Positions 6,803 through 10,726 of a stretch of DNA of 64,000 nt are shown here, in pieces. Position numbers and translations under genes: made by a program. The first letter of the stretch is position 1; each line of letters opens with the position of its first letter. The notes under the pieces are model-generated. The model was given only the letters and a program-made list of their open reading frames with translations. It searched no databases and was not told where the DNA came from. Source of the DNA: Catenulispora sp. EB89 (GTDB lineage: Bacteria > Actinomycetota > Actinomycetes > Streptomycetales > Catenulisporaceae); the NCBI RefSeq assembly GCF_041261445.1, contig NZ_JBGCCU010000004.1:372001-436000 (forward strand). Direction: 5' to 3'.

Positions 6803-7867
6803 CTACTTGGCCGCGAAGCCGCCGTAGAAGACGGCCAGTCCCCCGGCGGCGAACAGGCCGGCGATGATCCAGAACCGGATGGTCACGTTGACCTCGTTCC
6901 AGCCCAGCATCTCGAAGTGGTGGTGGATCGGCGCGATCTTGAAGACCCGTTTGCCGTGCCGCAGCTTGTACGACCCGACCTGGATCACCACCGACATCAG
7001 CTCGGTCACGAACAGGCCGCCGATGACCACGGCGAGCAGTTCGGTGCGGGAGCAGATGGCCAGGCCGGCGAAGGCGCCGCCGAGCGCCAGGGAGCCGGTG
7101 TCGCCCATGAAGATCTTGGCCGGGGTGGCGTTCCACCACAGGAAGCCGAAGCACGCGCCGACCAGCGCGGCGCCCACGACCGCCAGGTCCAGGGGGTCGC
7201 GGACCTGGTAGCAGCCGCCGTGCGGGGCCAGGCCGCAGGGCTGGCCATACTGCCAGATGCCGATCACCGTGTAGGCGCCGAACGCCAGCACCGAGGCGCC
7301 GGCGGCGAGGCCGTCCTGGCCGTCGGTGATGTTGACGGCGTTGGCCCAGCCGGCGGTCATGACGTAGCACCATCCGACGAACAGGATCGGGCCCAGGCCC
7401 AGCCAGCTGACGTCGTGCAGGACGGACACGTGGTCGCTGGCCGGGGTGATCCCCAGGGAGTTGCGGAACCGCAGCGCCAGCACGGCGAAGGCGATGGTCA
7501 CCGAGCACTGGCCGACCAGCTTCGCCTTGGCCCGCAGCCCCAGCGACCGGCTCCGGTTGATCTTGATGAAGTCGTCGAGGAACCCGACGGCCCCCATCCC
7601 GGTCATCAGCAGCAGCACCAGCAGCGCCGAGGGCGTCGGCGCCTTGCCGATGATCGCCTTGGTGAGGAAGTACCCGATCAGCACGGAGAGCACGATCACC
7701 GTGCCGCCCATGGTCGGCGTGCCCCGCTTGACCAGATGCGTCTTCGGGCCGTCCTCGCGGACTTCCTGGCCGTAGCCGCGCTTTTTGAAGAACCTGATCG
7801 CGACCGGGGTGCCCAAAAGCGAACATATCAGCGCGATGGACATGGCGTAGAGCACCGATCGCATCAC
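6803..7867 (-). CDS. mraY: Phospho-N-acetylmuramoyl-pentapeptide-transferase (MraY family), outside a dcw cluster
   Basis: 354 aa. A GTG start at 7867 (or ATG at 7864) follows a GGAGGA site. MraY is a polytopic membrane enzyme that moves phospho-MurNAc-pentapeptide from UDP onto undecaprenyl phosphate to form lipid I. Family motifs are present in order: [22 protein letters not shown] (metal/substrate aspartates), [25 protein letters not shown] and [11 protein letters not shown]. The usual TDGLDGL reads TDGQDGL here. The neighbours are miaB and a GNAT gene, not murF, murD or ftsW, so this is probably an extra copy beside the dcw-cluster gene, though the rest of the genome is not visible. Confidence 0.93.
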
Positions 7868-7969
7868 GGGGTGGGTCCTCCAACGGGGTGCGCGTTCGGG
7901 GGGAACGACGGAGTCATAGTACGCAGAGGGAAAGCCTTACCGTGGCACGGGTCTGACTAGCCGATGAGC

Positions 7970-7990
7970 CTTCGCGACGCCATCGCGAAG
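7970..7990 (-). terminator. Short stem-loop after the GNAT gene
   Basis: Arms cttcgcga (7970-7977) and tcgcgaag (7983-7990) with a 5-nt loop lie 10 bp past the acetyltransferase stop on the minus strand. It separates that gene from mraY downstream. The rest of 7868-7999 holds only the mraY leader with a possible -10 TACTAT at 7916-7921. Confidence 0.5.
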
Positions 7991-7999
7991 CTGACGCCG

Positions 8000-8524
8000 T
8001 CACGACGCTGAGGAAGTCGCCTGGTCTCGCTCGAAGTAGATCCAGTACTGCTGGAGATGCGGCGGAATCTCCGTCCCCACGTACGGTGTCCGCTCCACGA
8101 ACCCGCGCGAGCGGTACAGGCGCTGGGCGTCCGCCATGAAGCGGACCGTGTCGAGGCGCACAACGCGCGCCCGCATCTGCCGCGCCTCCTCGAGCAGGCG
8201 GTCGAGCAGCCGCGAGCCGACATGCATCCCGCGGCACTCGGGCACCACGTACATCCGCTTCACCTCGACGACGCCGGGCTCCAGCGTGCGCAGCCCGGCC
8301 ACGCCGACCAGCCCGCCGGCCGCGTCCTGCGCCACGAACAGGGCTTTCGACGGGTCGCGGTACTCCTCCAGCGAGTCGCGCAGGCCGGAGACGTCGGTCG
8401 GCGAGTCCTCGACGCCGAAGGTCTCCTGGAGCTCCCGCAGCGCCGTGGTCATGTAGTCCACCAGCAGCTTGGTGATCTCCTCGGCCTCGGTGGAGAGGTC
8501 GGCGCGGCGGACGACGATCGTCAT
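8000..8524 (-). CDS. GNAT family N-acetyltransferase
   Basis: 174 aa, starting at the ATG of MTIVVRRADL. The fold is typical: beta-strand start, a long linking helix region, then VKRMYVVPECRGMHVGSRLLDRLLEEA, where RGMHVGSRL is the acetyl-CoA pyrophosphate loop (R/QxxGxG/A). It ends with LYRSRGFVERTPYVG, usual for the family. The substrate cannot be read from the sequence. No ribosome site precedes the start. A TATTGT hexamer ends 7 nt before the ATG, so the mRNA may be leaderless. It is divergent from the serine hydrolase gene, with start codons 19 bp apart. Confidence 0.88.
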   Translation of the reverse strand: MTIVVRRADLSTEAEEITKLLVDYMTTALRELQETFGVEDSPTDVSGLRDSLEEYRDPSKALFVAQDAAGGLVGVAGLRTLEPGVVEVKRMYVVPECRGMHVGSRLLDRLLEEARQMRARVVRLDTVRFMADAQRLYRSRGFVERTPYVGTEIPPHLQQYWIYFERDQATSSAS

Positions 8525-8543
8525 GGGATGGACAATAGCCGGT
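8525..8543. promoter_or_regulatory. Bidirectional promoter for two divergent leaderless genes
   Basis: The 19-bp gap holds two overlapping -10-like hexamers: gacaat at 8531-8536 for the plus gene and TATTGT (complement of 8532-8537) for the minus gene. Each ends exactly 7 nt before its ATG (8544 plus, 8524 minus), the spacing of leaderless actinobacterial promoters. There is no room for ribosome binding sites, and no convincing -35 is seen on either side. Confidence 0.55.
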
Positions 8544-9740
8544 ATGGCACCGGCACCCCACCTGAACCCGGACGCACTCCACACCCTCCACCAGACGATC
8601 GCGGCCCGCGTCGGACGCGCCGAGCTGCCCGGCGTGGTGACGCTCGTCGCCCGGGTCGGCGACGACGGCTCCGAACAGGTCGACGTCGGCGTCTTCGGCG
8701 AGACCGGCCTCGGCTCCGGCGACCCGATGCGCCGCGACACCCCGTTCCGCATCACCTCGATGACCAAGCCGATCGTCGCCGCCACGGTCCTGGCCCTGGC
8801 CGAGGCCGGCGCGCTGGACCTCGACGCCCCGGTCGACGGCCTGCTCCCCGAGCTCGCCGACCGCAGGGTCCTGACGCACCTGGACGGCCCGCTGGACCGG
8901 ACCGTCCCGGCCGAGCGCCCGATCACCGCCCGCGACCTGCTGACCTTCCGCCTCGGGTTCGGCATGAACGGCGGGCCGCCGGACATCAACCCGCCGTACC
9001 CGATCAACCTGGCCGCCGAGGCGCGCGACCTGGTCCTGGCACAGCCGGAGCCGCGGACGCCGCACACGCCGGACGAGTGGATCCGGCTGTTGGGCGAACT
9101 CCCGCTGATGGACCAGCCCGGCACGCGCTGGCGCTACAACGTCGGCTCGCTCGTCCAGGGCGTCCTGATCGCCCGCGCCGCCAAGGCACCTCTCGACGAC
9201 GTCGTCAGGGAACTGATCTTCGACCCGCTGGGCATGGCCCGCACCGGTTTCAGCGTCCCCGAGGACCAGGCGCGCAGGCTCCCCGGCTGGTACTTCACCG
9301 ACTCCGCCGCCGGAAAGCCGACGCGGCAGCCGGCCGAACCCTGGCAGACCTGGGCCGCTCCCGCCGTCTTCCCCTCCGGCGCGGCTGGCCTGATCAGCAC
9401 GGCCGACGATTACTACGCCTTCGCGCGCATGCTGTTGCGCCACGGTTCGCACGAGGGCCGCCAGGTCCTGTCTCAGGAATCGGTCACGCTGATGACCACC
9501 AACCAGCTGACCCCGGAGCAGGTCGCCGAAGCCCCCTTCCCCCTCGACGGCGAAGGCTGGGGCATGGGGCTGTCCGTCACCGCCGGAGGCCGCTACGGCT
9601 GGGACGGCGGCTGGGGCACGTTCTGGGCCAACCACCCGCGCCTCGGCCTCTGCGCGATCTTCATGTCGCAGACCACTGACGCGATCTTCAACGGCACCAC
9701 AGCCGAGTTCGACGCCCTCGCCACGCAAGCGGCCGCCTGA
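8544..9740 (+). CDS. Serine hydrolase, beta-lactamase (class C / EstB-like) family
   Basis: 398 aa from ATG 8544; the frame is open further upstream but that part overlaps the GNAT gene. The penicillin-binding-protein-like fold is shown by SMTK (SxxK nucleophile motif) and RYN in WRYNVGS (YxN). There is no signal peptide, so it acts in the cytosol, unlike true secreted beta-lactamases. Esterase or peptidase activity is more likely. The dehydratase gene follows after 17 bp and is probably co-transcribed. The start appears leaderless. Confidence 0.88.
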   Translation: MAPAPHLNPDALHTLHQTIAARVGRAELPGVVTLVARVGDDGSEQVDVGVFGETGLGSGDPMRRDTPFRITSMTKPIVAATVLALAEAGALDLDAPVDGLLPELADRRVLTHLDGPLDRTVPAERPITARDLLTFRLGFGMNGGPPDINPPYPINLAAEARDLVLAQPEPRTPHTPDEWIRLLGELPLMDQPGTRWRYNVGSLVQGVLIARAAKAPLDDVVRELIFDPLGMARTGFSVPEDQARRLPGWYFTDSAAGKPTRQPAEPWQTWAAPAVFPSGAAGLISTADDYYAFARMLLRHGSHEGRQVLSQESVTLMTTNQLTPEQVAEAPFPLDGEGWGMGLSVTAGGRYGWDGGWGTFWANHPRLGLCAIFMSQTTDAIFNGTTAEFDALATQAAA

Positions 9741-9757
9741 GGATTCCAAGGAGCCCG

Positions 9758-10726
9758 ATGAGCACTCCCGTCATCACCGAGACCGACGTCAAAGCCGCCG
9801 CCGACCGCATCAGCTCCCGAGTGCGGCGCGTCGCCGTCACGCGCGCCGACGCCGACGTCGTCCCCGGCGCCGGCACCAACACCGCCGAGGTGTGGCTGGC
9901 CTGCGAGTTCATGCAGCACGGCGGCTCGTTCAAAGCGCGCGGCGCCCTGAACCTCGCCCTGCACCACCTCGAGAACGGCACCATGCCGCCCGAGGGCATC
10001 GCCATCGCCTCCGGCGGCAACGCCGCGATCGCCGCCGCGTGGGCCGGCCGCGCCGCCGGCATCAAGGTCACCGTCTTCGTCCCGGAGACCGCGCCGGCCG
10101 TGAAGGTCGCCAAGCTCCGCGCACTCGGCGCCGACGTACGCCTCGAAGGCACCGCCTACGCGCACGCGCTGGAGGCCTCCATCAAGCACGCCGAAGCCAC
10201 CGGCGCCCTGCTCTCCCACGCCTACGACAACCCCCTGATCGCCGCCGGCGCCGGAACCTGCGCCGCCGAGATCCGCGACCAGGCCCCCGACATCGACACC
10301 GTCATGGTCGCGGTCGGAGGCGGCGGCCTGTTCGCCGGCACCGCCGCCGCGATGTTCCCGCACGGCGTCCGCGTGGTTGCCGTCGAACCCGAGAACTGCC
10401 GCGCCCTCAACGCCGCACTGGAAGCCGGCGGCCCGACGGACGTCGACGTGCAGTCCGTAGCCGCCGACTCCCTCGGCGCACGCCGCGTCTCCGAGACCGC
10501 ACACCGCCTGGCGACCAACCCCCTGGCCACCTCGGTCCTGGTCACCGACGAGCAGATCATCGCAGCCCGCGCCGCCCTGTGGGAGGACCGCCGCGTGCTG
10601 GTGGAGCACGGCGCCGCGGCCGCGCTGGCCGCCTTGGCGTCCGGGCGGTACTCCCCGCGCGAGGGCGAACGGATCGCTGTCGTGCTGTGCGGCGCGAACA
10701 CCGATCCGTCCGACCTGTCTCACTGA
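9758..10726 (+). CDS. Threonine/serine dehydratase (PLP fold type II)
   Basis: 322 aa; AAGGAG lies before the ATG. The PLP lysine sits in GGSFKARGALN, the substrate loop in SGGNAAIAAAW, and the phosphate-binding glycine loop in VGGGGLFAG, all typical of threonine dehydratase/serine racemase relatives. The family deaminates L-threonine or L-serine to 2-oxo acids plus ammonia, or racemises serine. There is no C-terminal ACT regulatory domain, so it is a short, probably catabolic or unregulated form. Exact substrate is unknown. It lies 17 bp after the serine hydrolase gene. Confidence 0.88.
   Translation: MSTPVITETDVKAAADRISSRVRRVAVTRADADVVPGAGTNTAEVWLACEFMQHGGSFKARGALNLALHHLENGTMPPEGIAIASGGNAAIAAAWAGRAAGIKVTVFVPETAPAVKVAKLRALGADVRLEGTAYAHALEASIKHAEATGALLSHAYDNPLIAAGAGTCAAEIRDQAPDIDTVMVAVGGGGLFAGTAAAMFPHGVRVVAVEPENCRALNAALEAGGPTDVDVQSVAADSLGARRVSETAHRLATNPLATSVLVTDEQIIAARAALWEDRRVLVEHGAAAALAALASGRYSPREGERIAVVLCGANTDPSDLSH

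Follow-up and report, generated by a model that had tools for sequence, protein, structure and literature searches.

A 19-bp gap between divergent GNAT and serine hydrolase genes of Catenulispora as a probable bidirectional promoter of two leaderless genes

A gap of only 19 bp separates the start codons of a GNAT acetyltransferase gene and a serine hydrolase gene in an 11.9-Mb Catenulispora genome, here labelled G000. We read this gap as a pseudo-symmetric bidirectional promoter that has the geometry of the known 18-bp class and probably serves two leaderless genes, and on the sequence evidence presented below we give this reading a probability of about two in three. The locus itself is real, conserved and compact, and probably combines two known things, a bidirectional -10 element and leaderless genes. 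It was analysed in a window of 64,000 nucleotides (G000:C4 372001-436000), to which the coordinates in the text refer unless a contig is given. The features are as follows:

8000-8524, minus strand: GNAT acetyltransferase gene, 174 aa, ATG start (PF00583, 1.5e-15)
8544-9740, plus strand: beta-lactamase-family serine hydrolase gene, 398 aa, ATG start (PF00144, 2.6e-53)
9758-10726, plus strand: gene of a PLP-dependent enzyme (PF00291), with AAGGAG before its ATG
8525-8543: intergenic region GGGATGGACAATAGCCGGT, 19 bp, read directly between CAT 8522-8524 and ATG 8544-8546
8531-8537: GACAATA 7-mer with the overlapping candidate -10 elements of both directions, exactly centred in the gap (6+7+6)
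8532-8537, minus strand: TATTGT, a TANNNT hexamer with its final T at -8 of the GNAT ATG, candidate -10 element
8531-8536, plus strand: GACAAT, a GANNNT hexamer with its final T at -8 of the hydrolase ATG, candidate -10 element
8528-8539: ATGGACAATAGC, the 12-mer across the core, containing GACAATA
8523-8525, plus strand: alternative in-frame hydrolase ATG, overlapping the GNAT start in CATG and judged not used

The sequence-only reading had described two start codons 19 bp apart and overlapping gacaat and TATTGT hexamers with 7 nt between each and its ATG. Direct inspection confirmed this layout: the 7 nt cover 8531-8525 between TATTGT and the GNAT ATG and 8537-8543 between GACAAT and the hydrolase ATG. 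The gene identities given there, GNAT and serine hydrolase, agree with the Pfam matches listed above. Both starts, 8524 and 8544, were also chosen by a codon-model gene caller which uses no promoter motif. Among the sequences scanned, the nearest named relative is Catenulispora rubra, with a 91% identical hydrolase. The PLP-dependent enzyme gene is likely in one operon with the hydrolase gene, which it adjoins also in the related genomes G001, G004, G007 and G009. On the other side of the locus, an MraY-like gene lies at 6803-7855 (minus strand); the genome holds two further near-full-length copies of it (C4:330226-331272 and C8:315280-316329, 60-61% identity), and among the five genomes with both miaB and GNAT in the stretch it stands between them only in G000 and G001.

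How much weight the two hexamers carry depends on the geometry of the gap. At a length of 19 bp, A at -12 and T at -8 are reciprocal positions, so that any xAnnnT at -8 on one strand is also present on the other. The match of one hexamer to the other is therefore forced by the gap length and provides no independent evidence, and the hexamer symmetry is one observation and not two. It is nevertheless uncommon: in 2.395 Mb of G000, 120 of the 2531 CAY-N19-RTG places had such a reciprocal pair, and 24 of the 2531 had a TANNNT on either strand whose last T falls at -7, -8 or -9. What is non-trivial about the arrangement is that a TANNNT lies at leaderless distance, that it is conserved in four genomes and that its gap is the shortest among the 355 non-overlapping divergent pairs called.

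The genome is rich in signals of leaderless genes. In 1524 called genes (2.0 Mb of G000, with positions -10 to -30 as background), TANNNT had its last T at -7, -8 or -9 in 85, 55 and 22 cases, respectively, compared with 2.6 per background position; gene starts were taken from our own codon-model caller, and start errors blur these counts. The commonest spacing is thus -7 and not the -8 of this locus. GANNNT was present at -7 in 46 genes and at -8 in 31, against 16.0 per background position, which means that about half of the GANNNT hexamers at the hydrolase distance are background. TATTGT at -8 is a typical leaderless -10 element. GACAAT at -8, taken alone, is about an even bet, and the equivalent at -7 in G007 and G009 is better.

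The case for a leaderless mRNA is strong for the GNAT gene, which combines TANNNT with its last T in the -7 to -9 range and an upstream pairing too weak for a Shine-Dalgarno (SD) sequence. For the hydrolase gene it is moderate, because the first T of TANNNT is missing from GACAAT and because an SD-like GGGATGG (8525-8531) lies upstream. GACAAT belongs to the minority type GANNNT, about twofold over background at this distance, and is one of three NANNNT hexamers in the final 60 bp before the hydrolase gene. The pairing energy of GGGATGG is near the median of genes without a TANNNT signal (-5.8 kcal/mol) and not of those with one (-3.3 kcal/mol). Of the original proposal that one -10 element is shared by two leaderless genes, the GNAT half is backed by TATTGT, an SD pairing of -1.7 kcal/mol, the genome signature and the conserved core, while the hydrolase half came out weaker (GANNNT, SD-like pairing of -6.1 kcal/mol). 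Over the 250 bp upstream of each gene, the sole TANNNT is TATTGT on the GNAT side; the hydrolase strand has none. A scan of 7850-9900 for sigma70-type sites with at least 9 of 12 matches gave no hit, and the leaderless-like genes of G000 have no clear -35 consensus. A shared leaderless -10 element is best supported, given the genome signature, the lack of any other TANNNT within 250 bp and the conservation of the core.

This conservation was followed through the genus. Close GNAT orthologues (73-100% identity) are encoded in eight of ten genomes, and in five of these eight (G000, G001, G004, G007 and G009) the hydrolase gene adjoins GNAT. The gap is identical in G000 and G001. G007 and G009 have in common GGATATGGACAATAGCGGT, also 19 bp long, in which the core is slid by 1 bp within the unchanged gap, placing the last T at -7 on the plus strand and at -9 on the minus strand, both in the leaderless range. 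ATGGACAATAGC is present in 4 of 118 genomes (G000, G001, G007 and G009), once in each and always at this locus, and no copy was found in the other 114. At fourfold-degenerate sites, 286 of 340 positions are identical between G000 and G001 and 248 of 321 between G007 and G009, and 159 of 278 columns are invariant in all four. At these rates, 19 identical bases would be expected by chance with probabilities of about 0.04 (G000-G001) and 0.008 (G007-G009). For the 12-mer being invariant in four genomes the value is about 0.001, a rough figure for a 12-mer picked after it had been seen.

The fifth genome, G004, uses the same ATGs with a gap of 77 bp, and both genes have SD-like pairing there (-13.1 kcal/mol for GNAT, -7.2 kcal/mol for the hydrolase). 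Its gap (L213) also holds an inverted repeat, GTCTTG-CA-CAAGAC, which is absent from the 19-bp relatives and by eye could be an operator. A close hydrolase was not found in G008, G002 and G003. The GNAT gene is preceded by an SD-like site (-10.9) in G008 and G002 and, in G003, by CATACT 6 nt before its ATG. Absences count for little in G003 and G006, which are 81% and 77% complete. The position of G004 was analysed by four-gene (five genomes), GNAT (eight), miaB (ten), rpoB-locus and rpoB+miaB (eight) trees, in which the nodes that bear on its placement have support values of only 43-87. In the tree built from miaB, G004 groups with G007/G009 (support 85), in which case G004 would represent a loss of the compact state.

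The weaker hydrolase side leaves room for a different arrangement, in which only GNAT is leaderless from the core, whereas the hydrolase operon has its promoter inside the GNAT coding region and is translated via the weak SD-like GGGATGG. The pairing of this site in G000 and G001, the lower enrichment of GANNNT as a -10 element compared to TANNNT and the stronger SD-like site of the hydrolase gene in G004 all point in this direction. However, the pairing stops 12 nt short of the ATG, and it drops to -3.9 kcal/mol in G007 and G009 while the core stays intact. There is also neither a TANNNT on that strand within 250 bp upstream nor a sigma70-type site with at least 9 of 12 matches, and we consider this arrangement unlikely. 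Even less probable is a core that acts as an operator or another protein-binding site, with promoters elsewhere: the 12-bp conservation would also be expected for a binding site, but the core is not palindromic, and its distance from both ATGs is that of a leaderless -10 element. Since each of the four genomes has a single copy of ATGGACAATAGC, it is not a repeated exact operator, and there is no regulon of exact copies. A hydrolase start at the upstream ATG 8523-8525, which would turn the core into coding sequence on the plus strand, is in frame in G000/G001 and G007/G009, with the 19-bp gap preserving the frame, but is very improbable given that the extra peptide differs between these two groups (by-eye reading) and that the SD-like site of G004 precedes the later ATG.

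For the bidirectional promoter with two leaderless genes, the following course of events is predicted. RNA polymerase with the main sigma factor would read GACAATA in either orientation, the TATTGT orientation leading to the GNAT gene and the GACAAT orientation to the hydrolase gene, followed by the PLP-enzyme gene. With transcription beginning about 7 nt beyond each hexamer, the 5' end of each RNA would coincide with its ATG or fall within 1-2 nt of it, and the GNAT and hydrolase genes would be translated from mRNAs without a leader. On the plus strand, transcription would extend into the gene of the PLP enzyme, which begins at 9758 and is preceded by an AAGGAG of its own. Activity of this promoter, its use in both directions and the exact start sites are predictions from the sequence. 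The original expectation that transcripts start at the A of each ATG is approximate, as the usual spacing (last T at -7 of the start) would put the beginning of each RNA 1 nt before the ATG. The GNAT direction, with the better-fitting hexamer, may well be the more strongly transcribed one. The original suggestion that the two genes are mutually exclusive or co-opening drew no support from these results, and we claim no regulatory coupling; simultaneous occupation of one core by two polymerases is hardly conceivable.

In the pseudo-symmetric bidirectional promoters of Escherichia coli and Salmonella, one -10 core is used in both orientations (PMC12825309, PMC10268837). The class is described by overlapping -10 elements in which -11A of one direction pairs with -7T of the other and by a start spacing of about 18 bp. 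GACAATA shows the same overlap and reciprocal bases, with a plus-strand hexamer that lacks the first T, and the distance between divergent start sites would be 18-20 bp if the predicted starts hold (class range: 7-25 bp). A T at -18, also described for the class (PMC10268837), is absent in both directions if transcription starts at the A of each ATG, because the plus strand has G at both 8526 and 8542. In contrast to the enterobacterial cases, the promoter here is itself the gap between two coding starts, with start sites predicted from sequence; the RNAs would therefore be leaderless, and each upstream promoter region would lie in the coding sequence of the neighbour. In E. coli, five tested bidirectional promoters are reported to fire too rarely at the basal level for the two directions to compete, whereas repression of one side can follow when the other is strongly activated (PMC12825309).

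In Actinobacteria, leaderless genes are described as having TANNNT at about -12 (PMC3160421, PMC3898074), which is the same distance from the start codon as at our locus. They are described gene by gene; the plus side here has GANNNT. As at the leaderless-like genes of G000, no clear -35 consensus is described for Mycobacterium tuberculosis (PMC3898074). The same paper describes PrpD (Rv1130)/Rv1129c of M. tuberculosis as a divergent leaderless pair and speaks of "closely juxtaposed divergent promoters" in this species; both genes of the pair are leaderless as proposed here, and its text on the pair does not state an overlap of the -10 elements. The archaeon Pyrococcus furiosus has bidirectional promoters in which one symmetric TATA element drives both strands (PMC6640164). 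In contrast to the locus described here, that system depends on TATA/TBP, has starts 49 bp apart in the tested case and concerns antisense RNA rather than two leaderless genes. A literature search over titles and the beginnings of abstracts turned up no description of a -10 element common to two leaderless genes.

Short divergent gaps and LEADERLESSNESS were surveyed in 2.395 Mb, or 20%, of G000 (all of C1 and parts of C2, C4, C5 and C6), where 1873 genes were called; of the 356 divergent pairs among them, one overlaps. With 19 bp, the GNAT-hydrolase pair has the shortest gap of the 355 non-overlapping pairs. Short divergent gaps go together with leaderless signals: TANNNT was present on both sides in three of five pairs with gaps of 0-30 bp compared to 9 of 350 above (Fisher p = 2.9e-4), and 19 of 40 gene ends at gaps of up to 60 bp had TANNNT compared to 91 of 670 beyond (p = 7.7e-7), with both cuts, 30 and 60, chosen after the list had been seen. 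The GNAT-hydrolase pair is not among the three.

Three pairs with TANNNT on both sides have gaps of 20, 24 and 30 bp. The 20-bp pair (G000:C2 ~306290; L251:4893-7696) consists of a minus-strand gene for EccB of type VII secretion (PF05108) and a plus-strand gene without Pfam match around a TACGATA core (TATCGT/TACGAT), which repeats the geometry of the 18-bp bidirectional class. In the 24-bp pair (G000:C4 ~535716; L178:15414-17042), genes for ClpS (PF02617) and a nicotinate phosphoribosyltransferase (PF17767) flank a AGACTACGCT core (TAGTCT/TACGCT), which in our own reading fits the 23-bp class named in PMC12825309. The 30-bp pair (G000:C1 ~547672; L140:7067-8404) encodes a TetR-type regulator (PF00440) and a family 2 glycosyltransferase (PF00535) and has TANNNT on both sides without overlap. 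Based on the 19-, 20- and 24-bp pairs within this 20% sample, we tentatively suggest that compact head-to-head leaderless pairs might recur in the genus, with the intergenic space worn down to one sigma-factor contact and other control elements in coding sequence.

An order-wide search for the perfectly symmetric pattern CAT-N6-TANNNTA-N6-ATG (gap of 19 bp, ATG on both sides), which does not match the GNAT-hydrolase locus for want of the first T on the plus side, gave 17 sites in 119 genomes and thus no excess over the 20 sites of a backwards control; the ten genomes of the genus had none. A second control with AT in place of TA, which likewise does not match the locus, gave hits in 38 of the 119 genomes and is in our view a poor control, as it presumably suits coding sequence. 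CGATAG[A/G]ATCGTGCCATG, which recurred among these hits and was at first another candidate for a conserved compact pair (four of eight genomes queried), was rejected: the minus-strand frames at its 19-bp CAT differ between two genera, and the frame shared by G007 and G009 begins about 25-35 codons in, so this CAT is probably no start. The element (L268-L271) is conserved in two genera directly 5' of a regulator gene that by eye looks DJ-1/PfpI-type, and its TAG[A/G]AT ends 6 nt before the ATG of this gene. A near-palindrome, CATGGAAG-N-TANNNTA-N-CTTCCATG, recurs among the hits of the order-wide search in G055, G061, G074, G112 and G118; instead of a pair of start codons it could represent an operator.

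Should transcription in both directions indeed begin at the ATGs, the GNAT-hydrolase locus would be about the smallest possible divergent regulatory unit, with both promoters in 19 bp and no leader on either RNA. The 1-bp slide of the core in G007 and G009 offers a test of how spacing splits the output between the two directions. Moreover, the four compact, leaderless-like genomes and the one with a 77-bp, SD-like arrangement form a natural test of switching between leadered and leaderless expression.
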